Shown here one piece after another: positions 1,679 to 59,406 of a DNA stretch of 64,000 nucleotides. Position 1 is the first letter of the stretch, and every line of letters starts with the position of its first letter. A program made the translations under genes and the position numbers. The DNA is from Mixophyes australis (Eukaryota > Chordata > Amphibia > Anura > Limnodynastidae). Where the stretch lies: the NCBI GenBank assembly GCA_036250195.1, contig JAVHZZ010000009.1, forward strand, positions 96,581,771-96,645,770, given 5' to 3'. Below the pieces are notes generated by a model. It made no database searches. It was not told where the DNA came from and was given only the letters and a program-made list of their open reading frames with translations.

Positions 1679-4131
1679 AAATACAGTGGCAAAAACAGGG
1701 ACTTACCAAAGCAAAAAAGGCAGCTGTACTAGGGCAGTACACTCACTGTACAGTCCCTGCATTGAATCCTGCACTAAAGTATTCTTTTTTTATTAATATT
1801 ATTATACAGTAAATGCTGATTCTAAAAGAATGTATGTGTGTCATAATTACTATTCAGTGTGTGTTTTAAATTATTTTATCTCCCTTTTCTCATAACACTT
1901 TTCCTCTATAAATTGTAATGCTTTGATTGTCCACTGCTTGACCGGCCTCAATTAAGAAGAAAAAGTGCCATGATCATGAGACATTCTGAACTACAGCTAC
2001 AGGAACTGTTTCAGATAAATGTGCTTTTTAATGGGAAATCACATGAAACCGACATAAATTAACACATTGTAGCAATTATAATAATTACTATTTCAGTTCT
2101 AATTATATCACACTTATGCACTATTTTCTCCTCTGCGTGCTCTTTACAGATCAGAGAAAAAGGCTGGGGCTTCTAAGAGGTTCAGGTCACAGGCAGATTT
2201 ATAAGCAAGGCACAAAAAAACACCTATTGTAAGCAGTCCTGTTATGGTTATAATGGCTCTTCCGTAATTTTTAGTACTAAGTTTGGATGATACATGAGGT
2301 TGGAAGAAGAGGCAGCTGCATCTATTTCCAGTAGGCTCAGTTGCAAAATGGCACAAATTATGCTGTATTTAAAATGTGATGTAACACTAAATACTATTTA
2401 GAGTGCTTCATCCTATTGTTTGTTTTTGGATTCCATATCACTAGTGACTGAGTGGAATCCAGGTTCAAGCCCATTAATGTAGGGTTAGCCTTGACCTTAC
2501 CCAGTAGTCGACTGGAGTTATGCTGAGCTAAGCACTGACAGTACAGAAAGTAGCGGAGGGTCAGTGTTCCGAGTGATAGACTAGCGAGAGCCATCCCGAG
2601 CTGCAGAGACACCAAATTTATTTGTGGGCATGCTGGGACTAATAGTGCACCCAACCTGAGTTTGTTGATTCAACCAGCTTAGTGAGTAAGACTGGAAACC
2701 TGATCATGTACTTGCATCCTGTGTGATGCTCCAAATCTAGTGAGAGGGAAAATGGGCATGTGAGTGGTATGGAGAACAAACTAATGTTGGGAGATCAGGA
2801 AAGCTGTTGATGTGGACACAGTGTCGGAACTACCATTGGTGCAACAGGTTTGGTGCACCGGGGCCCATTGAGATAAAGGGGCCCGCTCCACAGGGAACTA
2901 GCGAGCTGTGTGACCTGGTTCCCTCCTACCACTTCCCTGCACTGGGGCACACAGCTCGCTAGTTCCGCCATTGGGTGGACATTATAGTGGTCAAAAGAGT
3001 GACTGTCCGCTCTTCGGTGACCCGAGACAATTATTTACCTGCCAGCATGAGTAGCCAGTTTTTGAACTGTCAAAGTCCAGCACTGACTGTGCTTTTAACT
3101 CACCCAAGCCAAAGAAAAAAAATAAAAAATAAAACAAGAAACTGAAAGACATGAAATTATTATTTTTTTCTAATAATTTTTCTTTATTCTGTTTGAACAT
3201 TGTAATTTGTGATATTTCACTGATAACAGCTGCATAATGTTTCCCCATCACAGCTCGGACACAACAATTAGCTGAAGCAAACAACTGGATGGTCGTATAC
3301 TAGATATTTCATGCACTGAAGTGAGAGCTTGTTCCAGGGAACTCAAATCTAGAAAGGGAGGTAAAATGGTAGTTACATCAGATGTAAGAGTCCATATTGC
3401 TTATATGGCTATATAATAATGATAATTTATCACTAAATGTAAAGCAAAATTTAACTTAAGTTTAAAACAGAGCTGTGTATTATTTTGCTGATAGTGTCCT
3501 TTTAAGTTGAGAAAATAAAAAATAAGTGAATGTGCGTAGTTGTTCTATATGTTCACCACACACAACTACATTTGCCTCTGGGTTTCCTCAGTACTCAAAC
3601 AACCACTGAGGTGTTTTTATTACTGTGTTGTTTATCACCACCCTAAGGCACCGAGCGAGGCCTGATAAATTCAGGTAGGAGAACTACATTTTGTCTCACA
3701 AAAAGACCTTTAGGGTCCCAATACTTTAAAATGTAAGTATTCTTTTTTATTTGGCCAGTAAATTGTATAAATGATATACAAATCCATATGTCAGAATGCA
3801 TAATGAACATATCATAGAGAAACCTAAATTAGTTCAGTAGGCCCCCACGATACTTGAGTACCACCAGTTTTCCATTGATTGAACATAACAAAGTAAAGAT
3901 GTTGATAAAACACAAAGGGCAATTACCAGTGGAGGAACCTCAAGGGGTGTGGCCCCCCTGACAAGCTCCTGCAATACTCCCCAAGGCCCCCCTCTGCAGT
4001 GGGTGGCGCAGTGGCTTCATGCACCAGCAGGGCCGGCATCAGAAATTGTGGGGCCCAGTACAGATAAAACCGGTAGGCACCTCCCTGACATTCTGCTCTC
4101 TCCTACCTTTTCATCCAGCTTTGACTGCCTT
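1679..4131. other. Intergenic with repeat fragments
   Basis: No gene is supported. About 2820-2970 and 3919-4128 contain GC-richer repeat sequence (CGGAACTACC and GGGGCCC motifs) related in style to 6012-6265. The second block appears to be interrupted by the MITE at 4132. Confidence 0.45.
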
Positions 4132-25505: not shown

Positions 25506-25850
25506 GGAGAGTATTGTCGGAGGGAGACAGAGTATATACATTTCTGTATGAGTAAAGGCTCAGCTGGTAAAGCCTATGTGGTGTGGGACTGCTGTTTGTG
25601 CCACAGTGAAGAGAATACTAGGTGTATCTGAAGGTTCTACCTCTGTGAAGTGCCTGAATACAGGGGCTGCCTGAAAGTACATGTGTCTCAGTGATCACTT
25701 AACATAGTGCTTTTATCTACATTTGAGACATCCAGGGTGCTGTGGATTTGAGGACTGGGTGTTCTGCTATAACATCAAGTTTATAAGCTGAGCTGTAAGT
25801 GAATAACCTAAGAGTGCAACTATCAACATCTGGGCATAGCAGGTGCCATC

Positions 25851-26738
25851 ATGGGAAAGCACGCTGCAAGTAACACTGCTGCCAGCAAGCTGGAGAAATA
25901 TGCTCGCACTAATCCTGCTACAGCGGCAGGGGGAGCTCCTGCGTCTGAGCTGCGGGTACCCCAGTCTTCTACAGACGCAGAAACACCTGCTGATTCTACT
26001 CTTCAGGAGGTCCTGAAAGCCATTGCTGCCTCTGAAAAGAAGGTAATGGATAAAATCGGAGAAGTGCAGGTTGATTTGTCATTGATGCGGCAGGACTTTC
26101 AGAAAATTAGGGAACGTGTGTCGGAGACAGAGGCTCGCATATCTATACTTGAAGATACTACAGTCCCTTTACCGCAGAAGGTTGCCGGTCTGGAGGCTCA
26201 GATGGTGTCAGTTAGACAGAAAATGTCAGATATGGAGGGTCGCCTCAGACGCAGTAACATTCGACTGGTGGGTCTCCCTGAGAAGGCGGAGGGAAATGCT
26301 CCGGAGACATTTCTTGAAAACTGGATGATCCAGCTATTCGGCAGAGAGGAGTTCACGGCCCAGTTTGCGGTGGAAAGGGCACATCGGATCCCGACACAGA
26401 GACCACCTCCTGGTGCACAGCCGCGCACATTTATTGCCAAGATGTTGCATTATAAAGATCGGGATGCTATCCTGCGATTGGCTCGGATTAAGGGCCCCCT
26501 GATGCATGAAAACCAGAGAGTTGCTGTATTTCCTGACTTTTCGGTGGATGTGCAAAAAAGCAGAGCACAATTTCTACAGGTGAAACGTCGTCTTCGTGAA
26601 ATGCAATTGCCATATGCTATGCTCTTCCCGGCAAGATTGAGGGTGATTGCAGATGGGACTACCCTTTTCTTTGGATCATCGTCTGAGGCGACTCACTGGC
26701 TGGATAGGAGAGCTCCTAGTGGTCTTCGTCCGGATTGA
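25851..26738 (+). CDS. L1 ORF1p, RNA-binding chaperone
   Basis: An intact 295-aa frame. Residues about 48-135 form a heptad-rich coiled coil (LQEVLKAIAASEKKVMDKIG onward), which in L1 ORF1p drives trimerisation. RRSNIRLVGLPE at about 136-147 starts the RRM-like domain, with WMIQLFG and VERAHRIPT following as in Transposase_22 proteins. The C-terminal domain includes RTFIAKMLHYKDRDAILRLA and VFPDFS. The family coats L1 RNA and forms the cytoplasmic RNP with ORF2p. The length is slightly shorter than mammalian ORF1p (about 340-370 aa). The start is the first in-frame ATG after the 5' UTR (GCCATCATGG). No lesion is visible. Expression cannot be judged from sequence. Confidence 0.93.
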   Translation: MGKHAASNTAASKLEKYARTNPATAAGGAPASELRVPQSSTDAETPADSTLQEVLKAIAASEKKVMDKIGEVQVDLSLMRQDFQKIRERVSETEARISILEDTTVPLPQKVAGLEAQMVSVRQKMSDMEGRLRRSNIRLVGLPEKAEGNAPETFLENWMIQLFGREEFTAQFAVERAHRIPTQRPPPGAQPRTFIAKMLHYKDRDAILRLARIKGPLMHENQRVAVFPDFSVDVQKSRAQFLQVKRRLREMQLPYAMLFPARLRVIADGTTLFFGSSSEATHWLDRRAPSGLRPD

Positions 26739-27374
26739 AGATGCTCCTGGTGATGTATTGGTCTATTGAACTGAGATGATACCACTAAGGACTATGTGCC
26801 TTTGATAGCTATAATGTTTTGGATAATATATATCACTTGGATGTATGTTTATATAAAATTGAAATACTGTCATTAATACTGTAGGTATTTGGATACTTAT
26901 ATGTTATGTATAAGGTGATAGCATTTGAAACTGCTGAATCCTGTTGTTGGTGCTAATAGATAGGAGGGTTAGGGGAGTACTAGGGGCGAATCTGTGGGTT
27001 GGGGAGCTTCCCTTGCTTAAAGGGTCGCGGTCTCCCTCTTCTTTTTCTTTCAGTGCATATAGGTATCTCCATAAGTACGGGGAGATAGGTGTGTGCGTTG
27101 TCTAAGGAGATGAGGGATAGTTATAAGGGGATCCAGGTATGTCTGAGTTGGGGGTGGATATACGGGGAGGGGGGTTGTTTGAATAGGGTAGGGAGGGATG
27201 AGTTCTTACAATACAGTGACAAGTATGGTACTTTATCTTTATACAAATGCTTTCGGATGTTGAGACTGTCTATCTTGGTAAATGCTAATGTGGCTGGTTG
27301 GTGGCTGGGTGTCTGCCTGGGCTGGAAGGGGTTGACGGTTATGGTGAGATGCTTCATGTGTATTCCCTTGTGCT
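26739..27374. other. L1 inter-ORF region
   Basis: A 636-bp spacer separates ORF1 and ORF2. A 102-codon frame (27089-27397) overlaps the start of ORF2 in another phase, but it has no recognisable domain and is probably not coding. Confidence 0.5.
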
Positions 27375-30300
27375 ATGGCGACTGGGAAGGTGAATAAGGG
27401 GTCTATAAAAATCCTGACTTGGAATGTACGTGGTCTAAACGATAAAATTAAACGGTCTTTGGTCATATCCCAATTGAAAAAGTATGAGGCAGATGTTATA
27501 TGTTTAACTGAAACCCATTTAGTGGGAGGCAAAGTGTTGGCCCTTAAGAAACCGTGGGTTGGATGGGCATATCATGCTACTCATACGGGCCATTCTAGAG
27601 GGGTATCTCTCCTTATACGAAAGAAAGTAAATTTTATTCTGGAAGTGGTGGAGTCGGATCCATTAGGTCGATATGTTTTTGTAAGGGGCTGCTTCGATTC
27701 CAAACGTATAAACCTGCTATCAGTCTATGTCCCCCCTCCCTATAGTGGTGAGGTCCTAAAAAAGTGCAGTGATTTTATTTCTCTGTCTCCTGATACTCCA
27801 GTGATCTGCTGTGGGGATTTCAATAATGTGTTGGATTCTAATGTTGACAGGTGGAGGGAGGTGGGGGACAATACACATGCTAAGAGATCAAAGTTTGCTG
27901 ATTTGGTGGCAGAAATGGGTTTGGTGGATGTGTGGCGCCTGAGGCATCCGGCAGAGGTTTGTTTCTCATGTTTCTCCACTTCATATAACGCCTTCTCCTG
28001 AATTGATCTAGGACTTGTATCGGGGGAACTGCTGCCGGCTGTCTCTGGTGTCGCATATTTGCCAAGGGGAATTTCAGATCACTCTCCATTGATATTAACA
28101 GTTGAACTTAATGTTTCTCGAGGTCAAGCATTCTGGAGGCTTAACCCCTTTTGGTTGACATTATTACAGGATGGAAATATTTTAGAGTCCCAATGGGAGG
28201 AGTACTTTGCTACCAATGTGGATACAGCAGCCCTGTCTGTCGTTTGGGATTCCTTTAAGGCGTTTTTAAGAGGCTCTTTAATTAGAAGCATCAACTGTTT
28301 CAAGAGAGAATCTAGGCTGAAAGGCGATAGATTGGAAAAAGAGGTTGTGCGGTTGGAGGAAGTATATCTCTCTTCTCATGCGGTTTCTGATAGGATGGCT
28401 TGGTTAACAGTACAGAGAGAGTGGTCGGATTATTTGCTAGATAAATCAAGGCGTAAGTTGTTATTTGCTAAACATACACAATACTTTGAAGCAGATAAGT
28501 GTGGTAGGTTTTTAGCTTATTTGGCTAGGTCTGAAAGGGCGGCGACTGTAATGGCGGGGATTACTGATACTTTGGGTGTCGTACATACCGTGACTGAAGA
28601 GATTAGTGATGTTTTCTATACGTATTTCAAAGAGGCTTATACGTCAAGAGCTGAGTACTCAGACTCTGATTTAGATACGTTCCTGGCGGCTGTTTCCATA
28701 CCCGAACTGAGTATAGATGGTAGAGAAAGTTTGGAATTGTCAATTTCTGATGAGGAGATTGTAGCTGCAATATCATCGTTCCCAAATGGTAGGGCTTCGG
28801 GCATAGATGGGATACCCATAGAGCTGTATAAGAAACATCTGGGGTTTTTTGTGCCTCGCCTGAAGGACATGTTTACAAGTTTTAGAGATCAGGGGTGTGT
28901 GTCTCCGTCTATGTCTGAAGCCATTATAGTTCTTATCCCTAAAACGGGAAAGGATCCCTTATTTCCAGAATCATACAGACCGATATCGTTACTGGCAACG
29001 GATATTAAGATTTTAGCAAAAATTTTGGCGACACGGTTGAACCGGGTGATTAGTGAGATAGTGCATCCTGATCAAACCGGTTTTATGCCAGGAAAATCTA
29101 CGGCCATAAATCTGCGAAGGCTTGTCATTTACAGTTGCCCCATCCTCCTCCGGAGGAGGCGGTGGTGGTGTCCTTGGACGCCGCTAGGGCCTTTGACTCT
29201 GTGGAGTGGAGGTACCTGTGGGCGGTGCTTTTGAAATTTGGGTTTGGACCGTTTTTTATTCAGTGGATTAGACTTTTGTATTCTTGTCCTACAGCTAGAG
29301 TCTGTGTAAATGGCTTTATGTCCCGCCAGTTTGTTATGGGCAGAGGTACCAGACAGGGATGTCCCCTGTCCCCTGCTCTGTTTGCCCTTGCCATAGAGCC
29401 ATTGGCATGTGTAGTAAGAATGCAGCCAGATATTACTGGTTTAAGGATGGGCTGCAGGACGGACAAGATTGCCCTCTATGCAGATGATATGCTACTTTTT
29501 TTGTCATATCCTGATAAATCATTGCCAAATCTACTCCATGTGGTCTCAGTGTTCGGTAGATACTCGGGACTTTTGATTAACTGGGATAAATCTAGCGTAA
29601 CTCCGATCAAGGGAACCTGCCCTACGGGCCAAGTTCTGCAGACTTCTCTTAAATGGGTTCCGGTATTTAAATATCTTGGTATCTGGATTTCTAGTGATAT
29701 GGGTCAGTATATTCAGCGTAATGTTCAACCTCAGATTGATTATCTTAAGAGCCGAGTTGGGGTGTGGAAGCAGCTGCCACTGTCGGTCACAGGTAGAATT
29801 AATCTGGTCAAAATGATAGTTCAACCAAAGTTTCTGTATGTTTTGCAGCAGTCGCCGGTCTATATCCCCATAGTACATTCCGTTACATAGAACGTCTTAT
29901 GGCCTCTTTGGTATGGGCGGGCAGGAGGGCAAAGGTTAAACTCACTACTCTATATCGTACTCGAGGATCGGGGGGCTTGGCTTTGCCGAATCTACGGCTT
30001 TATTATTTTTCCTCCCAGTTAGCACATATTGAAATTTGGTTTAGGTCAAGGCTGGGTCTAGACTTGCATGATTTTTTGGTTTCTGAGACAGGATCTAGTC
30101 ATACACGTGTGCAGTTTCTTCTGGCCGGAAGAAAAGTTGGGAGGGACCCCCCTTTATTAATACAGGCCATGAAGGTTTGGAGATTGTCGTCCCAGATTGG
30201 AGGGGGATTGGATCTAGATCCATGCACTCCACTATGGGACAATTTGGATTTTGGAGAACTGATTAAGATGGAGGGGGCTGGAGCTTGGCGGAACTACAAT

Positions 30301-31161
30301 ATAACACACATTGGACAATTGTATGACAACGGTATATTATATTCATTTGAACAACTTCAGACACTACATGAACTACCTAGGGGTTACTTTTATAGATATC
30401 TGCAATTAAGACATGCTCTGGCCTCGCAGTTTCGGGAAGCTACCCCGAGCTTTAACGCAGATTCCTTAAGGGTGCAACTGTCAAGGTTGGGCCAGAGGCG
30501 GAAAATCTCTTTTCTGTACTCAATTTTGGTGGAAGGATCTGGCGAAGGGGGCTTGCCGGAGCTGCGATGCAGGTGGGAGGGGGACCTGGGGCGTCTTAGT
30601 GATAAGGCATGGGGTATGGTGTTATGTAGCCCAAAGGAGGTCATCACATCAATTAGATTTCGCCAAGTTCAATTTTTTCTGTTACACAGAGCATATCTCA
30701 CCCCTCTTCGGCTTTCTAAGTTCAGTGGTGGTCAGAAAGTGTTGTGTCCCAAATGTAGGAGCGAGGAGGGGGGCTTCTGGCATATGCTTTGGGAGTGTCC
30801 GCTGGTTTCATCCTTTTGGGGAGAAGTGGAGGACTGTATTAAAAGATTGGAGGTGGGAGTGATTGCCCTGAGTCCAAAGCTCTGTATATTCGGTTTAGGC
30901 CTGAACAAAAAAACTCGTAGACTCATTAGATTGCTTATCAATACGTTACTCATGCTGGCAAAGGTAGTGATAGCTAGGAAATGGATGGCACCAGAAGCTC
31001 CAACATTGAATAGCTGGATTGAACTTGTTAACGATACAGTTGGCCATGAAAGGTTCATGTATACCAGCAGGAATTTGGTGGATAAATATGAAAGAATATG
31101 GTATAGATGGAGGATATCCCCGTATGTCACGGAGGGATTGAGGGAAGTGGAACTCTCCTGA
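27375..31161 (+). pseudogene. L1 ORF2p, endonuclease/reverse transcriptase, disrupted
   Basis: About 1262 codons. The endonuclease (27375 to about 28110) shows WNVRGLN, LTETHL, SVYVPP, CGDFNN and ISDHSPL, so the catalytic positions of the APE fold are present. The reverse transcriptase (about 28900-29900) shows SYRPISLL, DQTGFMPGKS, SLDAARAFDSVEW, TRQGCPLSPALF and the catalytic LYADDMLLF. The C-terminal part has a C-x2-C-x8-H-x4-C motif near 30745-30805. Lesions are an in-frame TGA at 27999-28001, a frameshift near 29122-29127 and another near 29868-29875. The TGA sits where related proteins usually have arginine, so CGA-to-TGA decay is likely. The protein would nick DNA and prime reverse transcription in the nucleus. 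This copy should yield only truncated pieces. Confidence 0.95.
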
Positions 31162-33905: not shown

Positions 33906-34499
33906 TCATCGTGCATTGCAGCAGCCACTACACACTATCCACATTATGCTTCTCACATTATTCCATTCAGCTACCTCACACAATCTACAACTATCTCACA
34001 TAGAAACTTGTACTTTTTATATCACGCTTCATATGCATGTGTGTAGGAGAAGATGTCTCTTCATAACATTGTAAGTTCAGATTCCGGCATGACATCCTTT
34101 ATCATATAAAACACTTAACACTATTAAATCCTTAGTATGCCCAGACAATAGTACACAGTCCTATATCAATGCATATAATATCATTCATTTCACATGCAAT
34201 CACAAAGACAAATCCCTAGAACTTCATTCATATCACAATCAAAAACTATACATATTCCATTCACACACATAATTCCATAACTTCAGTAACTCCACTCCCT
34301 TCAATTTACAGTCTCCAAAAAAATTATACTTGCCAACATGTTTAACTATGTGTGTCCAGTGAATGTGAAAGGAGATCTCAGGCCTGTGTAATGAGATTTA
34401 AAAGCTTCTGGCTCACAGCCAGAGCTGGATTACGGCTTTCGGGGGCAGGTGGCACCTATTGTCATCTTTCACAATAGAGAAAAACTATGTTATTGTTGC
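33906..34499. other. Intergenic
   Basis: Nothing recognisable; AT-rich, with many CACA and CATT runs. Confidence 0.4.
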
Positions 34500-35840
34500 A
34501 CTCATATTTCCCTTCCATGCCTCTCATTTCCCTTCCATGCCTCTCATTCCCCTTCCATGCCTCTCATTCCCCTTATATGCCTCTCATTCCCCTTCCATGC
34601 CTCTCATTCCCCTTACATGCCTCTCAGCCCTCTTCCATGCCTGTCATTCCCCTTCCATGCCTCTCATTCCCCTTCCATGCCTCTCATTCCCCTTCCATGC
34701 CTCTCATTCCCCTTCCATGCCTCTCATCCCCCTTACATGCCTCTCCTTCCCCTTCCATGCCTCTCATTCCCCTCCCATGCCTCTCATCCCCCTTACATGC
34801 TTCTCATTCCCCTTCCATGCCTCTCATTCCCCTTACATGTCTCTCATTCCCTATACATGCCTCTCATTCCCCTTCCATCCCCCTTCCATGCCTCCCATTT
34901 CCCTTCCATGCCTCTCATCCCCCTTCCATGTCTCTCATTTCCCTTCCATGTCTCTCATTTCCCTTCCATGCCTCTCATTCCCCTTCCATGCCTCTCATTC
35001 CCCTTCCATGCCTCTCATTCCCCTTACATGCCTCTCAGCCCTCTTCCATGCCTCTCATTCTCCTTCCATGCCTCTCATTCCCCTTCCATGCCTCTCATTC
35101 CCCTTACATGCCTCTCATTCCCCTTCCATGCCTCTCATTCCCCTTCCATGCCTCTCATCCCCCTTACATGCCTCACATTCCCCTTCCATGCCTCTCATTC
35201 CCCTTCCATGCCTCTCATCCCCCTTACATGCCTCTCATTCCCCTTACATGCCTCTCATTCCCCTTACATGCCTCTCATTCCCTATACATGCCTCTCATTC
35301 CCCTTCCATGCCTTTCATCCCCCTTCCATGCCTCCCATTTCCCTTTCATGCCTCTCATCCCCCTTCCATGTCTCTCATTTCCCTTACATGCCTCTCATTC
35401 CCCTTCCATGCCTCTCATTCCCCTTACATGCCTCTCATTCCCCTTCCATGCCTCTCATTCCCCTTCCATGCCTCTCATTCCCCTTCCATGCCTCTCATCC
35501 CCCTTACATGCCTCTCCTTCCCCTTACATGCCTCTCATTCCCCTTCCATGCCTCTCATCCCCCTTACATGCCTCTCATTCCCCTTACATGCCTCTCATTC
35601 CCCTTACATGCCTCTCATTCCCTATACATGCCTCTCATTCCCCTTCCATGCCTTTCATCCCCCTTCCATGCCTCCCATTTCCCTTCCATGCCTCCCATTT
35701 CCCTTCCATGCCTCTCATTTCCCTTCCATGTCTCTCATTTCCCTTCCATGCCTCTCATTTCCCTTCCATGCCTCTCATTCCCCTTCCATGCCTCTCATCC
35801 CCCTTCCATGCCTCTCATTTTCCTTCCACACCTCTTTGCA
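34500..35840. repeat. 20-bp satellite array with higher-order structure
   Basis: About 67 tandem copies of a 20-bp pyrimidine-rich unit, CATTCCCCTTCCATGCCTCT. Variants (CTTACATG, CTATACATG, CATCCCCC, CATTTCCC) recur in order: the rare CCTATACATG variant lies at 34850, 35281 and 35621. The last two are exactly 340 bp (17 units) apart and sit in the same variant context. All three forward frames stay open for 460-500 codons because the unit has no stop in any phase. Since 20 is not divisible by 3, each frame spells the same 20-residue peptide cycle with a different offset. These frames are not evidence of a gene. Confidence 0.95.
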
Positions 35841-38800
35841 TGAGACTAAAAACTGTTTCTGTTCAGCAGGACTTTGGTACCAGGGGGCCCCTGGGAGGGA
35901 CCTAGGGACCATGCCCCTCACCCTAAATCAGGCTCTGCTCACAGAATTTAAAATGTAAATGCAGGGTAGCTTATTCAGATACAGATACAACTCAGATACA
36001 ACAAATCACATTCTATTTAAGGAAACCCATAAAGAGGTTGGCATATGATGGTGCAATAGGACTCTTGCTCAAAGTCACCAGTATGTGTGCAAAAAGGGTT
36101 GTTGCTCACAACAAAAAGAAATACAAGTGAAAACAGTTGGTGGTAAGAGCTGATGCCAAAAAATGATAAAAAGCTTTTAAACCCAAATCCATAGTATTAT
36201 TAGAATACATGGAATGAATATCTATGGTAACCAAGATCAAACTTGTCTGCAAACTTTTAAGCTTACGTAAAAAATTATAAGTCGCCTGTAAACATGTAGG
36301 AATATTTTATATTAGTGGCTTTAAAAAAATATCAATAAATTGTACCAGTGATTAATATCCAATTTACATTTAGGACTTGTGCTAATGTTATGGCAATGTA
36401 GCGATTAGTATTTAGATTATAAGGTTGTAACTGGTATTTATTTTTCTTGATTTCTCATAAACTTTTCAACTCTACATTTCACTTTGTCTTTGAAACAAGG
36501 GGTCTCTTGTTTTCCTTGGGCTCCAGGGGTTAGAATAGCCATTTTATGGCCTCTCCAATCCAGACAACAACTAGGAAGTGTAATTGAGTCCCGTGTCCTA
36601 TTGGGTCCGAGGCAACTGTCATGTTTGCCCCTTTATTACAACAGTCCTGAATGCATCCACCTAGCAAAAGAGTCAGGAAAGTTTCTGTTCCAAGTTCCAA
36701 TAACTTCATAGAACTAACAAACGTACTATGTGCATACTGCAAACTATGGTTCACTGCAATTTTCTGCAAAAGGTGGCTATGGGTTCATTTACGTGAGCTT
36801 TATGAAAAAGTTGCTCACGACACAAAAACACTCATGGGAATGAACAGGCTGGCTGCAGTGTCCATAAATGAGATTACTCCCCCGAAATCTTGTGTATGTA
36901 GAAAGGAACCTTCCCTCTTTCTGATAAGCACTTGAAACTTGTATATATATATTTGTGGATGTAATTACTAGCTCTTCTATAGAAGGTCACTTGAATTTAA
37001 TACTAGGCTAAAATAGGCTGGCAAATATTAGTCACAGGATGTTAAGCGATTAAGTTCATAACGATGATGAAGTTTTGTAACTATTTCCAATGGGCTACGG
37101 TACAGAAGTAATTTTCATTTGTGTAGTGAACAGAGATTCTCTCAGTGTAATCTTGTTTCATGAACTTCAGATGGGGTTGATTAATGAACCATTAATCTAA
37201 TCTAACTTAATCTCCTAAAACTCCATCTAATTGCACTGCTTCCGTAACAAAGTAATGGCATTAGATTAAGCCTACAGCAACATGGATTGTTTTTTCAGGT
37301 TTGCAAGAAGTGTTGCATGAAGGAGCCCAAAATACAATCACCTGTTTGATCCAATTTACACCTGCAAGGCTGAAAAAACTTGTGTGGTCCTAACCCTATT
37401 AATGCAATTGGAAACCCTTCTGTGTAGCCCTTGCCTAAAAGGTGCATGTGGAGTGAACTATAAGTGTACTACCCATATATTAACCATGACTCTAGTGAGT
37501 AGCATGATAGACATCTTAGCATGCTAATTGACCCAGATAATATGCTAAACAGCCTGGGCAATATGCTAATTGCAGAAACTATAGAAGCACTGACATGGAC
37601 TGGCAGGGGATGGACAGAGCGCTATTTGGTACGCTATTAGCATATAGAATTTCCTTTGTATCTAATGGCTGGGGGTTTTCTGCTATTAACGGATTAATAT
37701 TAAGTGGCTACGCTACAGCTGAGAGAGAGAGACTTCTCCATCCTTCTACTATGTAAAACTATCAAATTCCATTTGCTCAAATTTTTCATACCACCACTTC
37801 TAAATTTTCAATTTGACCTTGACCACTATATTTTTTCTTGGCTTAATATCATGCTAATATAAAATGTCAGGAGTGCACCATACTACATTTGAGAATTAAT
37901 TTTGACATGTACAGTGTACATATCATTTGATCTGACAAGAGTGTTAATTTAACTGTTCTGCTCCATTTTAATACATTAATTTAGCGACATGCAGAGCCAA
38001 AGTAAACTTTTACCTCACTGTGTGGCTGTGCGTGCCACATTAACATATTCCCTGTGATGTCACTTTAAATACATGATTTTTAAGTTGGCAAGTCAGAGTG
38101 TGGCATGAATAATGCAACAGGCCTATCAATAATTTACATCATTATGTTCCTAAGTTAACTATGGCAAAATAATTTATGTTTTGTGGCGTGATGATACCCT
38201 TGGAAACTGTCACTACCTTCTATTTTGAGTTTTTAACATAAAATCATAATTCTCCAATCCACTAGCCTACAATACAATAGGTTCTCATAATCAGATATAC
38301 CACTTTGAACTAAGGAGCATATTTACAAATAACCACATTTTTGACACAATCATTTTCATTTCTTATTGCAATGATAAGGAATGAAAGATTGTGACTATTT
38401 CTGAAAATTGTTCTGACGGAACAGCTGTCACGATAAACGGCAATCCCGGTGAACAACTATCTTCTATATGGTCACTATCGCAAAGTGGCCACTTTTGCGA
38501 TAGTAACTGGAGGGTAGAGCAGGTAGATGCAGTGAGGGATCCCAAGATCCCTCTACCGCAATACTCTCCCCATAGGCTTCAATGGCTAACGCCATCGTTC
38601 CGACATCAAGCACAAGTTCCGAAATCCTATGATTTTTGGAACTTGGTAAATTATACTAAATAGAAACCTATGGGGACTGCTTTTGTATAATTTAACAGTG
38701 GGACTGCAGCAATTATAAATAGCTGAAATCCTTAATATTGCAGTGGATTAGGAGCTTCTTAAGTAGGCCCCTAAAGGTTTCCTGTGAGCGTACAATGAAT

Positions 38801-39338: not shown

Positions 39339-39629
<291 letters not shown>

Positions 39630-49505: not shown

Positions 49506-49513
49506 CTAATTAC
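49506..49513. repeat. hAT target-site duplication, left
   Basis: CTAATTAC, repeated exactly at 52023-52030. Confidence 0.9.
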
Positions 49514-49889
49514 TAAGGGTGTGCACCGGGCACTTTTAGTGTTTTGGGTTTTGGGTTCTGATTAGCTCGAGGTTTTGGGTTCTGATTTGTTTTGCCAAAA
49601 CACCTGACGAAAGGTTTTGGTTCTGATTTAGGGTTTTGGGTTCTGATTTATTTTTAAAAAAGCATAAAAAGTGCTAAAATCTATTTTTTTGTTTGTTTTT
49701 CACTCCTACGCTATTATTAACCTCAATAACATTTAATAACAATCATTTCCACTAATTTCCAGTCTATTCTGAACACCTCATACCTCACAATAATGTTTTT
49801 AGTCCAAAACGTTGCACCGAGGTAGCTTTCTGGACTGCATAGTGGAGTGGGCCCGGTACCCAATTTGGTACCGTGGCCACAATACCTCC

Positions 49890-50075
49890 TACAACCATGG
49901 TACAGACCATTCATCATTGAGATCCCATCAAGTATGTTAAAGACAGACAGGGTCGAAGTGTTATTTGTTGACTTTGGAAACAAAAAAACTGTCCCTGTTG
50001 CAAATCTTCGTGCAATGAAGAGTGACTTTTTCATTTAAAGGCTCAAGCTTTCAAGTGTGGTGTTTATAAGTTATA
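49890..50075 (+). pseudogene. Captured Tudor-domain fragment inside the hAT
   Basis: The plus strand reads PWYRPFIIEI, a short linker, then RVEVLFVDFGNKKTVPVANL and RAMKSDFF, the core of a Tudor domain (W-Y-R and V-x-F-V-D-F-G-N). The frame stops at 50036-50038. After a one-base shift near 50031 the sequence continues HLKAQAFKCGVYK, matching the segment that follows the core in extended Tudor domains (L-x-x-Q-A-F/I-x-C). So at least 55 residues of a genuine Tudor repeat are present with one frameshift. Tudor repeats of TDRD/RNF17-type proteins bind dimethylarginine on PIWI proteins in germ-cell granules. The fragment is antisense to the transposase ORF and has no start of its own. The exact host gene cannot be named. 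Confidence 0.7.
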
Positions 50076-50118
50076 TTTTACTTTTGGTTTAATTTGTTTA
50101 ATTTGTTTTAATTTTGTT

Positions 50119-50979
50119 TTACTTGGTGCTCAAGGCAAATGACTGTTGGACGGTCAATTGTTTGGTGAAAGAATTAGCGGTCTTACAACTTCCCCTCTGG
50201 GAAGATGACCGACTACCAGCAGCAACAGCAGCAGTGGCAGTAGTAGGCGTACCGCTGCAGGATTCCTCAGATGAATCCCGTATTGAAGAGGAATCAGTCT
50301 GGCTGGTGACATGGCCTGCAGGACTAAATCTGATGGAGATCGTGGAGGAAGTTGACGAGGAGGGTGTTGGTGGTGTGTATCCAACAGGACCAAGGGATTT
50401 AGGTGTCCCTGGACTGATGACGATCCTAGCCCCAGTTCCTGAACTAACCACTGAACTATGAAGGTTATTTAGGTGACGTATAAGGGAGGATGTCCCTAGG
50501 TGGCCAAGATCCTTACCCCTGCTTATTTGAGCTTTACATAAGCTACATATGGCCAGACATTTGTTATCTGGATTGGGGTAAAAATAACTCCAGACAGAAG
50601 AGGTGCATTTCTTGGTCTTCTGACCAGGCATGACGATGGGCTTTTTCATCCCATGGACATCCACTTCCTTGCCACTCCGTGTCGTAAAGGGCATATTGGC
50701 AAGTTTAAGTTTCTCCTCAGATGTTTTCAATTTTCTTTTTTTACTAATTGTAGTGAACTTTTGCTTTTTGGATTTTACATGCCCTCTACTAGAAGATTGG
50801 GCATCGGCCTTGGCAGACGACGTTGATGGCATTTCATCGTCTATGTCATGACTAGTGGCAGCAGCTTCAGCATTAGGAGGAAGTGGGTCTTGGTCTTTCC
50901 CTACTTTATCCCCCAAATTTTGGTACTCCATTATATGCAGCACACGTTGTATTACAGTACTATTTTTTAAATACTGCAA
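50119..50979 (-). CDS. hAT transposase N-terminus with BED zinc finger
   Basis: An open frame of 286 codons. Residues 1-110 are acidic/basic and low-complexity, with a KSKKQKFTTISKKRKLK cluster that could be a nuclear signal. A BED-type finger follows: SSVWSYFYPNPDNKCLAICS, then LCKAQISRG and SSLIRHLNNLHSS. It holds the W-x-YF aromatic start, C-x2-C and H-x4-H ligands. BED fingers bind the transposon ends in hAT transposases. The remainder is serine/threonine-rich, ending VQQSFALSTK. The catalytic RNase-H fold and hATC dimerisation region are absent, so this alone is not an active transposase. It may be the first exon of the ancestral gene. The start is the first in-frame codon, and later ones are possible. 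Confidence 0.75.
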   Translation of the reverse strand: MQYLKNSTVIQRVLHIMEYQNLGDKVGKDQDPLPPNAEAAATSHDIDDEMPSTSSAKADAQSSSRGHVKSKKQKFTTISKKRKLKTSEEKLKLANMPFTTRSGKEVDVHGMKKPIVMPGQKTKKCTSSVWSYFYPNPDNKCLAICSLCKAQISRGKDLGHLGTSSLIRHLNNLHSSVVSSGTGARIVISPGTPKSLGPVGYTPPTPSSSTSSTISIRFSPAGHVTSQTDSSSIRDSSEESCSGTPTTATAAVAAGSRSSSQRGSCKTANSFTKQLTVQQSFALSTK

Positions 50980-51059
50980 GAACAGTGAACAATTTTTAAT
51001 AGAGTGCAGTATTAATGTTAATGGACTGCAATAATTTTTTTTAGAATATTTTTTTATAT

Positions 51060-51780
51060 TTTTTTAAAAGGATTTTTGTCGAATTATAATTTTTTTGGAA
51101 GATTTTTTAATACTTTTAAAATAAAGATGCACTTCGCAAAACAAAGCACAGGACAAAAGCACCGCTGGACTCAGCAAGGACAGAGCACTGGACTGATGCA
51201 CCACTGGACTCAGCAAGGACACAGCACTGGACTGATGCACCACTGGATTCAGCAAGGACACAGCACTGGACTGATGCACCACTGGACTCAGCAAGGACTT
51301 TTTTGATTATTTTTTTTTTATTAATTTAAAAGGATTTTTGTAGAATTTTTCTTTTTTTTTCTTTTTATGGAAGAATTTTTAATACTTTTGAAAGAAATAT
51401 GCACTTTGCAGAACAAAGCACAGGACAAAATGCACCGCTGGACTCAGCAAGGACAGAGCACTGGACTGATGCACCACTGGACTCAGCAAGGACAGAGCAC
51501 TGGACTGATGCACCACTGGACTCGGCAAGGACACAGCACTGGACTGATGCACCACTGGATTCAGCAAGGACAGAGCACTGGACTGATGCACCACTGGACT
51601 CAGCAAGGACACAGCACTGGACTGATGCACCACTGGACTCAGCAAGGACAGAGCACTGGACTGATGCACCACTGGACTCAGCAAGGACAGAGCACTGGAC
51701 TGATGCACCACTGGACTCAGCAGGACAGAGCACTGCCAAAAGCACCACTGGACTCAGCAGGACACAGCACAGCACAGCAC
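51060..51780. repeat. 39-bp minisatellite in the hAT leader, duplicated block
   Basis: Units of 39 bp (CTGGACTCAGCAAGGACAGA, then GCACTGGACTGATGCACCA) occur about 3-4 times at 51155-51297 and about 8 times at 51430-51745. Each array is preceded by the same AT-rich segment (AAAAGGATTTTTGT at 51066 and 51328), so a larger block duplicated, offset about 262 bp. Because 39 is divisible by 3, all six frames repeat in register and several stay open. These frames are not genes. Confidence 0.9.
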
Positions 51781-51844
51781 GAGAAATAGCAGGACAGAGG
51801 ACCACCTAACACACCCTCCCTCTTCCCTGATCAATGCCCGAGTG

Positions 51845-51855
51845 AAGATGGCGGC
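51845..51855 (+). promoter_or_regulatory. YY1-type motif near the hAT 5' end
   Basis: AAGATGGCGGC is a perfect YY1 consensus, about 170 bp inside the right terminus. It is where the minus-strand transposase promoter should lie. Role inferred. Confidence 0.45.
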
Positions 51856-52022
51856 GGCAAGCGGGGAATTTAAAGGTTCCGAGTATCGCGAGATCCGACA
51901 GCGGGATTATGACTCAGAGCCTCGTTTTAAGTTTCGGAATTGGCGGGAATACCCGGACAGTGCTCGGATCCGCAATGTTCGGGGGGGCTCGGATTCCAGG
52001 AATCCCAGTGCGCTCATCCTTA

Positions 52023-52030
52023 CTAATTAC
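52023..52030. repeat. hAT target-site duplication, right
   Basis: CTAATTAC, exact match to 49506-49513. Confidence 0.9.
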
Positions 52031-52492: not shown

Positions 52493-53155
52493 TCATTTAT
52501 ATAATTCCATATTTTCTTGGTCCATTTCTGGCTCCTTAGTTGGTGTGGCTGATGAAAAGGATGCTGATGCTGCGTTCTCAAAGCACTTGCAGCTTGGGCA
52601 GTCATGGTAGAAAGGACTACGCTGAAGGAAAGATTGGGCCATAGATATGACAGATGCTGCAGCCATCATATTCATTGAAAACCAGGGGTTAGAAACTGAC
52701 AGCAAGTTATCCAAATTGGACTGCAGGTCTCCTAATTCTGGATTCATGTTTGGAAATGCTGATATGGGTGGTATCATATGAGATGGAGAAGCAGAAGAAG
52801 TGGTAGTGGTAAAGTCTAGTCTGTGACTGGTATTATGGCCCATTGCAAAGTATTCTGATGGTGTTGTTGTTACTGATGATGAAGAAGTGCAGCTACCACT
52901 GATGTGTGTTGTTGGATTAAATGGTCGACGTCTTTTTCCCTTTTCAGGAACAGACTTTGGTGCGTTGTCTCCTGAGGTCACAATCTCTTCTCTATTCTCA
53001 ACAGCACACTTTTGTAGATTTGTATCCTGTCCTTTCAAGTCATGTTCTGATGAGGACATAGCTGAACCAGCTTTCTTTATACCCACTCTTCTCTTTATTT
53101 GTCTTAATAATTCAGGATAACCTCTCCGAAAATGTGCGTTTTGGTACAGCTGGAA
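52493..53155 (-). CDS. hsfy1: HSFY/HSFX-family heat shock factor, exon 2
   Basis: The last coding exon has 220 codons plus stop. It follows the acceptor TTGTGTTCCAG, and in phase 0 gives FQLYQNAHFRRGYPELL and RQIKRRVG. This is the wing and final helix of the HSF DNA-binding domain (canonical F-x-H-P-x-F-x-R-G and I-x-R). The rest is serine/threonine-rich with no clear coiled coil, as in HSFY, which lacks the long HR-A/B trimerisation zipper of HSF1/2. A near-terminal SPFYHDCPSCKCFE cysteine cluster is notable. Two AGs nine bases apart are possible acceptors; the upstream one preserves the family alignment. The frame is lesion-free. Confidence 0.9.
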   Translation of the reverse strand, partial: FQLYQNAHFRRGYPELLRQIKRRVGIKKAGSAMSSSEHDLKGQDTNLQKCAVENREEIVTSGDNAPKSVPEKGKRRRPFNPTTHISGSCTSSSSVTTTPSEYFAMGHNTSHRLDFTTTTSSASPSHMIPPISAFPNMNPELGDLQSNLDNLLSVSNPWFSMNMMAAASVISMAQSFLQRSPFYHDCPSCKCFENAASASFSSATPTKEPEMDQENMELYK

Positions 53156-53472
53156 CTGGAACACAAGGACACAATTTTAATATAGATTTTTCAAATATAT
53201 TTCAATCTCATAATAAATGTGAAATCAGAATATAATGGACAATGCCGGTTACTATAACCACTAAATATGGTCTATATTTGCTTTTGGTTATAGGATGGTA
53301 GCAGCATGAATGCACTTGAAGCTTAACAATTTACAGAAATGGGAGTGACCTTACTGTAACCTGCAGAGATCTCTGCAATGTATCTTTTGATATACATGGT
53401 ATTTTGCTTGTAAGTATGGTAACTAACCCATGATCAGAACATGTTAGTAAAATCCACATATAGATAGAATAG

Positions 53473-54464: not shown

Positions 54465-54773
54465 GTGTAGAACATGAAAGGAAGCACATTATTATTAGCT
54501 GTAAATATCTCCTGAAAGATAAAGTAGCACTGCTATAAAATAAAACACAATAAATATCCAGCTTTTACATTCAATCAGTAGAATGGCTGGATCTTTCAAA
54601 ATATCTGATGGATAGTTATTATATTCAACTTTTTTTTACGTAGAAAAGTAGGTACAAGTAATGCAAACTTATCCCCTGGCTCTTTTTACTACAGATATAT
54701 CAGATATTCACTATTTTTAATACATAAAATTATTGCAGTAAATTAAATAAATAAGCATTATATAACAGTTTAC

Positions 54774-55343
54774 CTTTTTAAATTCTGCAGCAATTTCCTC
54801 CTCAGCTAGGAATTCTGTGAGTGAGGCGGATCTTTGAAATTCACGTCGAACTTTAATGAATCCATAAATATTCAGTTGCCGTATAAAAATTTTCATACAA
54901 TCGGTTTCGAAAATTTTGAAAGGACCTGTTCTCTCTAGAACTTCAGTTTTAAACAGTTCCTTATTAACCATAATACAGATACCATCGTCATCCCACCGAA
55001 TAGATTTAAAATGATCACTTTCTACAATCTTCCACAGTTTACTAGGAAAGTTAAGGGATGAAAAATCTCCCAGGACTGAGTCCTCATTTAAAAGGAACCG
55101 TGACTTTTTCACAAATGGCTCATCAGCCAGAACTTGTGTTGTCTTCTCTTCCATTTCAGGCTCGATATTTAGGATTTCATCAACTGCCTGATCATCTACT
55201 GGAGATACTGACGGCATTATGGATTGCTGAGAAACCTCTTTTGAGTTTGTCATCATTATTTGATCTCCTACGCATGCTGATTCTTCTGCAGAAGGATCCA
55301 TCTCTAATCTTGAATATGGAGAACCCTGATCATGTGCAGTCAT
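54774..55343 (-). CDS. hsfy1: HSFY/HSFX-family heat shock factor, exon 1 (DNA-binding domain)
   Basis: 190 codons from ATG (55343) to the donor AAG|GTAAAC. Residues 1-95 are acidic and serine-rich. From residue 97 the HSF winged-helix domain reads LNFPSKLWKIVESDHFKSI, WDDDGICIMVNKELF and then the recognition helix IFIRQLNIYGF at about 152-162. FIRQLN-x-YGF is the HSF signature. The sequence then gives EFQRSASLTEFLAEEE, a feature of the HSFY/HSFX branch and not of HSF1-5. Exons 1 and 2 make 410 aa, against 401 aa for human HSFY1. Mammalian HSFY is testis-expressed and nuclear. A heat-inducible role is unproven. This single gene may represent the common ancestor of mammalian HSFX and HSFY. Confidence 0.92.
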
Positions 55344-56597
55344 CAGACATAGCTCTCATACATCTATAGCATTAAGATGCTGGGAGATCAATGAGGAATT
55401 CTAGAGCACCCCAGTAAGTATCACACATACATATTACATCACAAAGGACCTCAGTTGCTAGAAGGTTACTGGCCTTTCAGTTATGTTTTCTTAAAGGCAA
55501 AGACTACTATTATTGCACCTCTCTGTATGCAATAATACACATGCAACATCTATTTCCATGTCATCAACAAAATTTAAAATATGTAGTTATTCACCATCTA
55601 TCTTAACTTAAACCCATCTGCCATTAATGTAAATTGACAAACATAAGTTCTCAAGGCTTCATCCAACCTGAAATTCTACTGTTTTTAAATTGTATTTGAT
55701 CAAAGAGGAATAATATTTTAAACCAGAGTTTTAACCTTCTTGAACTGTGACCCAGGCTCAGTGACAGCCAAATTCCTCTGGGTCCCCTGTGTAAAATAAG
55801 AGCAGCTTTATGTATGTTTAAGTATGTGTACATTTGTAGATACTATTGTTTTGTTGAAATATTTAGAATGTACTATTGTGCACTGTTTTGTATTGAGTAA
55901 GTGTGTGAGGTCACCAGTGTGAGGTCCGACTGGGAACCTGACCCCCTAAAACCTGGCCAGGATCCTACTGGACCACCCGCCTTGGTTTCATCCCATTCAG
56001 TACAGGGGTGTCCGAATGCATAACCGGCAGACAAACAAACAGACCAATGATTTTTATATATAAGATGGTGCATTTTTCTGATACAATTTTACATTATTTG
56101 TCCTTACCAAATTAGCAGCTCTTGTAAGATATTGCATTGGTTGCATGCATGCTAACTATTACTATATCGCTACTAAAAATATATTTTTAAGGTTTATTCA
56201 CCATTTATCTTAACTTAAAACAATCTGCTATTAATGAAAAGTGATAAACATAAGTTCTCATGGGTTCGTCTAAACTGAAATTCTACTATTTTTTAAATTG
56301 TATTTAATCAAAAAGGCATTTTTTTAAACTAGAGTTTTAAGCTTCTTTGACTGATGCCCTGGCTCAATGACATAACCAAATGCCTCTGGGTCCCCAGTGT
56401 AAAATAATAGTAGCTTTAAGTATGTTTAAGTATGTGTATATTTGTAGGTACTATTGTGCACTGCTTTGTGTTGTGGTAAGTGTTTTATTATCAGGACAAC
56501 CTTGAATATATATCTTTAATAATATAATATTTGTTTAGAAAATCTTCCTATACGTTTCAGTAATATTATTAAAAATTTTGGTGGAAAAATCACTATA
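55344..56597. repeat. Direct duplication upstream of the HSF gene
   Basis: 55588-55906 and 56193-56484 are diverged direct copies in the same order. Shared blocks include TTATTCACCAT, ACATAAGTTCTCA, CTGAAATTCTACT, CCTCTGGGTCCCC and TATGTTTAAGTATGTGTA. They start about 605 bp apart. They may be a local tandem duplication or two copies of one repeat. Nothing coding is seen. Confidence 0.75.
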
Positions 56598-58169: not shown

Positions 58170-59406
58170 CAGTCCTCGATTTTTACTGCTCCTATGGTTG
58201 TGGATGTATGGGTTTCCTCCACCCATGACTTTAACAAGATAACGTGATAGACTTGCCGTTTTCGTAATCTGCCGAGATGCCGTACCTGGTAATTGACTAG
58301 TCCTACGGCCTCTATTCACTCATAAGGGCCTTGCCAATGTGCGTACAATTTGCACTTTTGAGTTGGTACCAGAACAAGCACCTTGTCACTTGGGTTGAAG
58401 GTGCGTAAGGTGGCTTGAGTGTCCTAACCCTTTGTTTGCCATCCCTGTGCTTCTGTTAGATATTGCTTTACCAACGGATCGATCTGTTATAGTCGATCAT
58501 ACAATTGGGCTACAAACTGTATTGCTTTTGGCTCCTTGGGTCTCTGCAGTGCTCACCCTTCTTTGAAGATATCCAGAATTCCATGGGGGTTGTCTCCCAA
58601 ACAGAAGCTCAAAGAGACTGAATCCCTTTGATGCCTTGGGCACCTACCTTATCGCAAATATGATATAGGGTAACAGGGTATCCAAATCTCTTTTATCCTG
58701 AACCATGGCTCATCTAATCATTTGTTTAAGAATCCTATTAAACCACTCAACCAACCCGTCGGTTTGCTGGTGATAAACCAAGGTCTGTAGTCCTTCTACC
58801 CCTAGCAATTTACACAACTCCTTCATTAGATTTATTTTGGAATTCCAAGTTGAGTGTACATTAATAGTAACTCTTTTGCATTAGTACTTGATTTAAAATT
58901 CTGTAGAGGGATTACCTCAGGATATCGTGTAGCATAATTAAGAACTACCAATACATATTGATGTCCTCATGCAGAATTTTCCCAGGGACCCACTAGGTCC
59001 ATGACAATTCGTTCGAATGGAACTTGAATTATAGGGTGGTACCAGGGGAGCATGATAGTCTGGTTTAGTGGCATTCCGCTGGCATACTGGGCAAGCTTGA
59101 CAGTATCCCTTGACTGCCATACGTATTCCTGGCCAGTAAAACTTCAGGAGCACTCGATTTTGAGTCTTCTTCTCAACCAAATGTTCCCCCAGTAGGTGTG
59201 TATGTGCTGTTGCTTATACAAAAGCCATGTGTACCTGGGGCACAAAGAGTTGATTAACTAATTTCTTCTGCACCACTGCTACCCTATATGGTAGATCCCC
59301 TTTGATTATAAAATAGCATTTTCTCCCCTTGCCGGTCTTTCAGACTTCCATACTTTATTCACTTCCACCACATATTTATCATTTAGTTGGTCCCACACAA
59401 AGTCCT
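58170..59406 (-). pseudogene. Ty3/gypsy integrase remnant
   Basis: The minus-strand frame 59180-58938 has the H-H-C-C zinc-binding module of a chromovirus/gypsy integrase. It reads VEKKTQNRVLLKFYWPGIRM, then GYCQACPVCQRNATKP, with the two histidines lying just upstream (TAHTHLLGEH) past an in-frame stop. Downstream, frames with stops still read as the integrase core and C-terminus: GWLNGL, KASKGFSLFELLFGRQPHGI, DKVLVLVPTQKCKLYAHWQGP. These match the gypsy LFGR-x-P and L-x-x-W-x-G-P features. Many stops and frameshifts make it inactive. The part farther upstream seems displaced past 61237 by an inserted element. Confidence 0.82.

Follow-up and report, generated by a model that had tools for sequence, protein, structure and literature searches.

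A hAT transposon family in the genome of Mixophyes australis carries a fragment of the host gene TDRD6. The fragment lies antisense to the transposase gene, has the same junctions at many places, and is also present beside unbroken transposase frames. One internally deleted copy is found in the window, which is the whole stretch of 64,000 nucleotides analyzed here, and the donor gene was located elsewhere in the same genome. The TDRD6 piece was captured, probably during repair, and spread together with the family, and the fragment itself is most likely a passenger.

The element of the window and its Tudor fragment

The window element has imperfect terminal repeats (TAAGG[G/A]TG.GC) and lies between exact 8-bp target-site duplications, as the sequence-only reading had reported; duplications of this length are a mark of the hAT superfamily (Table 1). 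Sequence comparison shows that sibling copies elsewhere have the same ends and different duplications. A further mark of the superfamily, a BED zinc finger together with a C-terminal dimerization region, is present in the full-length sibling copy L023. The window copy retains BED alone, and no hAT dimerization region was found in its BED open frame (50119-51063) by Pfam search. It is without the transposase body that lies between two 37-bp stretches in L023. The 39-bp minisatellite upstream of the BED frame is strongly variable in length among siblings and is far larger in L027. No further copies of the element were found in the 64,000-nt window at E values up to 1e-3, and a viral-contig pattern scan of the window gave no match.

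Table 1. Coordinates of the hAT element of the window and its parts. FL positions are those of the L023 element, counted from the left.
Feature	Position	Strand	Basis or remark
hAT element of 2,509 bp with an internal deletion	49514..52022	- (by BED ORF)	duplications, terminal repeats, ends of siblings
Target-site duplication CTAATTAC, left	49506..49513		exact, 8 bp
Target-site duplication CTAATTAC, right	52023..52030		exact, 8 bp
Hairpin unit, 14-nt arms	49847..49880		TDRD6-like stretch begins 13 nt away
Captured TDRD6 fragment, part of an extended Tudor domain	49894..50067	+ (sense)	Pfam, PDB, TDRD6 alignment of the L023 copy
Open frame with BED zinc finger, N-terminal transposase part	50119..51063	-	zf-BED, E 1.3e-10
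37-bp stretch	50120..50156	-	twice in full-length copy L023 (FL 745-781 and FL 2842-2878), 33 of 37 positions alike
39-bp minisatellite, upstream of the BED ORF	51141..51770 (51141-51298, 51430-51770)		inside the hAT element

The sequence-only reading had described a Tudor frame (WYR...VEVLFVDFGN...LRAM), continued as HLKAQAFKCGVYK after a one-base shift and antisense to the BED-finger frame. Both parts are present in that arrangement, and the shift lies near 50033. The placement on the plus strand also holds, and only its span of 49890..50075 is slightly wider than the stretch that is alike to the source gene. The single-frame ORF at 49826-50035 (+) matches Pfam TUDOR with an E value of 3.3e-6 and 27.6 bits, the cut-off being 23 bits; with 58 residues joined over the shift, the E value is 1.8e-10. 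About half of the Tudor profile is covered, from position 68 to 118 of 121. Among solved structures (PDB), the top match of the joined piece is TDRKH (E 3.5e-6), which was dropped as a source after the TDRD6 donor had been found. Protein searches with the 58-aa piece gave no match, probably because the candidates were limited by length, and no match came from an NCBIfam profile search.

Other features were recognized in the window. Two minus-strand open frames, 52493-53176 and 54720-55355, resemble two exons of a heat-shock-factor-type gene, which may be HSFY-like. The upstream exon at 54720-55355 matches HSF_DNA-bind (E 2.1e-17) and the frame at 52493-53176 resembles the last exon; the hAT element inserted beyond the stop codon of the latter, at a distance of about 470 bp. 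A LINE-like element occupies 25812-31158 (+), with Exo_endo_phos at 27348-27998 (1.4e-15), RVT_1 at 29072-29887 (1.9e-23) and 28002-29231 (2.2e-9), and a sub-threshold match to an L1 RNA-binding domain ahead of these frames. The fragment of an integrase zinc-binding domain at 58941-59213 (-; Integrase_H2C2, 4.7e-14) is probably a retroelement remnant. The region 34402-35955 (+) shows long open frames in all three plus frames with SMPLIPLPCLSFPFHASH-like repeats and constitutes a large minisatellite, and a near-threshold ASCH match is found at 39339-39629 (+; E 0.00076, 20.6 bits, cut-off 21.2).

The donor gene and the sibling copies

The genome from which the window comes (3.126 Gb) was searched for the donor and for further copies. 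The protein search, with 150 of 17,947 first-look candidates scored and 150 matches listed, located the donor at C3:33633790-33633960 with 86% amino-acid identity, inside an open frame of 1,774 residues. This frame (L051:1443-6764) contains seven TUDOR stretches and is 99% identical to TDRD6 of Mixophyes fleayi; among 120 of its 289 relatives, from frogs and other vertebrates, most are named TDRD6. The fragment of L023 is identical to TDRD6 of the same genome in 161 of 175 aligned columns (92% at the DNA level) with one gap, and both breakpoints fall within the single 1,774-residue frame. The earlier proposal that part of a host piRNA-pathway gene had been transduplicated is thus borne out, the gene being TDRD6 of the germ-granule and piRNA machinery. 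In mouse, MIWI interacts with TDRD6, and TDRD6 is required for compaction of the chromatoid body, as described in PMC11194079.

Among the best 40 matches to the TDRD6 proteins compared, identity with the fragment is 88% for Mixophyes and 70% for Hyperolius, the next best, which places the capture in the Mixophyes lineage. At six positions the present TDRD6 base never occurs in 62 aligned fragment units. Four of these change the residue, and the fragment residues there (I, T, E, A) occur in TDRD6 of other frogs, so at least some of these differences arose in the host gene after the capture.

A DNA search with the fragment, in which 40 of 1,707 first-look candidates were scored, gave at least 45 matches of 95-100% identity, and the left end of the element is common to most of the 20 loci retrieved in this way. 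Both flanks of the fragment were seen at the same junctions in 25 of 29 aligned units, the other four being two tandem pairs, and all 29 share the absence of one particular base from the T run in the Tudor frame. The spread by element copies that had been anticipated from the window alone is therefore found at many places. An unbroken transposase frame of 923 residues is present in two of the 20 longer loci, L023 and L027. L023 measures 5,120 bp between exact GTAAATTG duplications, its frame matches both zf-BED (6.9e-11) and Dimer_Tnp_hAT (5e-15), and its fragment follows the stop codon of the transposase at a distance of about 290 bp, in antisense. Since siblings with 923-codon frames carry the fragment, a capture of the Pack-TIR kind has become part of an element of the L023/L027 type that, judged by its frames, is apparently autonomous. 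With a strict end pattern, the 20 long sibling loci gave ten pairs with exact duplications, one with a single mismatch (L025) and nine without a pair; the end pair of L027 was not found within the stretch retrieved. Tandem fragment units occur in 12 loci, spaced about 227 bp where both are whole. Tandem units within single elements were noticed in L045 (1501-2125), L013, L018, L041, L044 and L048.

The frequency of the fragment was estimated in copies picked by a different part of the element, with 1.2 kb of the transposase gene as query. A total of 40 out of 3,318 first-look candidates were scored, leaving 39 copies without L023's own place. The fragment is present in at least 32 of these 39 and antisense to the transposase in all 32. 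In 19 copies a fragment match 0.8-1.3 kb downstream on the opposite strand was matched by eye with the fragment-search matches; 501-bp windows of the other 20 revealed the fragment in 13, antisense in each. L062, L064, L071 and L072 have other transposase-like patches in its place and L065 has minisatellite sequence, while the window retrieved for L058 stops short of the place and that of L055 matched nothing. The patches of the former four resemble FL 2725-2798 and 3024-3062. In this hAT family, filler DNA seems to gather in the 3' region. L027 is also among the 39 and is the sole one of them checked for an unbroken frame.

Patches resembling the transposase gene of the same element are also found in L023. 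Its hairpin unit, the equivalent of that in the window, is similar to this gene (FL 469-530 to FL 2676-2737, 77% over 62 bp), the two 37-bp stretches are 89% alike, and another patch, similar to FL 2031-2110, occurs in some copies. The hairpin, with 14-bp arms 13 nt from the left breakpoint, has a folding energy of -19.5 kcal/mol in L023 (z -3.9; none of 200 shuffles as good) and -13.5 kcal/mol in the window copy (z -2.5). The patchwork filler and the hairpin fit template switching in repair, as PMC8277862 proposes for multicopy Pack-TIRs. On this view, a hAT ancestor acquired about 175 bp of the central part of host TDRD6; the piece probably served as filler while template switching mended a break in the element. 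From then on, as part of an apparently autonomous element, the fragment would have occupied the interval that separates the left end from the stop codon of the transposase, antisense to this gene, and would have multiplied along with the family at a great number of sites. The part of the transposase gene that the window copy and its kin have lost is bordered by the 37-bp repeats, so a deletion between these repeats seems likely; this later event would have given rise to the small fragment-bearing copies, including that of the window. No pre-capture copy was found among the copies compared, so the repair mechanism is inferred, as is the order of events.

Strand, divergence and possible effect on TDRD6

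The plus strand of the window is sense to TDRD6, and the minus strand, that of the transposase, is antisense to it. The strand logic of the sequence-only reading, in which plus-strand transcripts act against the host gene, is thus inverted: it is RNA from the transposase strand that could pair with TDRD6 mRNA. Exact runs of at least 21 nt to TDRD6 are found in 41 of 42 fragment-picked units and in 18 of 19 units of transposase-picked copies, and runs of at least 30 nt in 34 of 42 and 6 of 19, respectively.

Copies picked by the fragment differ by 0.6% on average within it and by 2.9-6.4% in seven other stretches. An unusual conservation of the fragment was considered and rejected, because the low value came from copies picked by the fragment itself. 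In the 13 transposase-picked copies compared, which are those absent from the fragment-search matches listed and so lean the opposite way, the mean difference among 15 full-length units is 3.4%, versus 2.1% in the adjacent stretch. The true divergence of the fragment probably lies between these values. The tandem units of L041, L044, L045 and L048 (two to three each, one per copy having been picked by the fragment) are 93.9-98.4% identical to L023, which is inside the range that UTR and transposase sequence of that set of copies spans against L023 (92.6-99.5%). Variants among the units number 62 nonsynonymous to 12 synonymous, compared with about 4.1 to 1 expected by chance. Neither this ratio nor the divergence in transposase-picked copies gives, as far as the tests reach, any indication of selection at the protein or DNA level.

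The fragment is best read as passenger DNA, the most likely of the explanations considered. Some observations go against it. Of the transposase-bearing copies examined, at least four fifths retain the fragment, 12 loci have it repeated in tandem, and exact runs of at least 21 nt to TDRD6 persist in most units; nothing requires a passenger to keep such features, though recent spread explains them. Moreover, the left end (FL 1-296) is 83.3-97.0% identical to L023 in distant copies and the fragment 93.4-100%, although the fragment itself was the basis for picking these copies. A possible effect of the fragment is antisense interference with TDRD6. It could act as a counter-defence, in which RNA from the transposase strand, as dsRNA or as a piRNA source, would lower TDRD6 in the germ line, so that transposon control or chromatoid bodies are weakened and the element is favored. 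The antisense orientation in all 19 places cross-matched by eye and in all 13 retrieved copies with the fragment, the exact runs to TDRD6, AATAAA signals past the fragment on the transposase strand of L023 and the rice precedent of CACTA transposons with miR820 against OsDRM2 (PMC3459959) agree with such an action. However, the transposase-picked copies show no excess conservation, at least four of the 39 hold other filler in the place of the fragment, and two ATTAAA lie between the stop codon of L023 and the fragment, so the transposase mRNA may end before it. We regard the counter-defence as improbable. The same low expectation applies to its fullest form, an autonomous vertebrate hAT with antisense TDRD6 in the 3' part of its transposase unit, whose germ-line RNA would turn the piRNA machinery or a dsRNA response on TDRD6. 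If the fragment is passenger DNA, whatever its antisense RNA might do to TDRD6 would be incidental.

A plus-strand product was also considered, in which the fragment would formerly have encoded a small Tudor peptide of the element serving as a decoy. Ten of the 62 units are without net frameshift relative to TDRD6, and five stop-free full or nearly full-query matches lie in open frames of 107-138 aa among the matches listed. Yet the other 52 units are frameshifted, the variants are neutral in their nonsynonymous to synonymous ratio and only about half a Tudor profile is encoded, which makes a decoy very improbable. An unrelated nested insertion or a chance resemblance is refuted almost beyond doubt by the donor match, with its 92% DNA identity over 175 columns, and by the junctions common to many elements. 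Both outcomes that could have overturned the earlier interpretation, namely the failure of a Tudor-family match and siblings without the fragment owing to an unrelated nested insertion, were checked and did not occur.

Comparison with known gene captures

The element can be compared with the Pack-TIRs of animals. Across 100 animal genomes, Tan et al. 2021 counted 370 of these, of which 208 are hAT and four multicopy (PMC8277862). In a frog, hAT-N8_XT carries 291 bp of the CAPSL 5' UTR on three chromosomes (PMC8277862). As in the Pack-TIRs described there, TIR ends and target-site duplications surround a non-TE host-gene fragment whose parental copy lies elsewhere, here TDRD6 at C3:33.63 Mb. 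There are also several insertions with distinct duplications, for which template switching has been proposed (PMC8277862). In contrast to the four multicopy cases of that source, the fragment occurs here in at least 149 scored places besides the donor, with tandem units counted apart, and also in copies with an unbroken transposase frame. Plant Pack-TYPE elements are described as non-autonomous (PMC8903248); by analogy this applies to the window copy, but not to siblings with 923-aa frames. The case is a host-gene capture by hAT of the Pack-TIR kind, distinct in its high copy number and unbroken transposase frames.

Turmoil-1 of C. elegans is another animal transposon with transduplicated host protein-coding sequence (PMC2572040). 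There the captured sequence is in the inverted terminal repeats, whereas here it stands behind the transposase gene and derives from a germ-granule gene. In rice, OsDRM2 is lowered by miR820, a small RNA that has been tested and whose site co-evolves with it (Nosaka et al. 2012, PMC3459959). As in the rice case, a DNA transposon family here has sequence matching a host silencing gene. The fragment is complementary to that gene on the transposase strand, whose transcripts may or may not reach it. Unlike miR820, the TDRD6 case is known from DNA and its fragment shows no constraint, being at least as diverged as the adjacent stretch with a neutral variant ratio. The titles and abstract openings listed from the gene-capture and Tudor/TDRD6 literature, with most subscription journals outside this scope, contained no report of a TDRD6 capture by hAT.

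Captures by animal DNA transposons are mostly single copies in the survey of PMC8277862, and here one belongs to a highly repeated family with an intact-looking transposase. The family offers copies at various degrees of divergence, a natural series that can be compared with the living donor. The captured piece comes from a germ-granule and piRNA gene and provides a concrete, testable case for feedback of gene capture on host defence. If the antisense reading were true, it would be an animal counterpart of miR820, aimed at a germ-granule gene.
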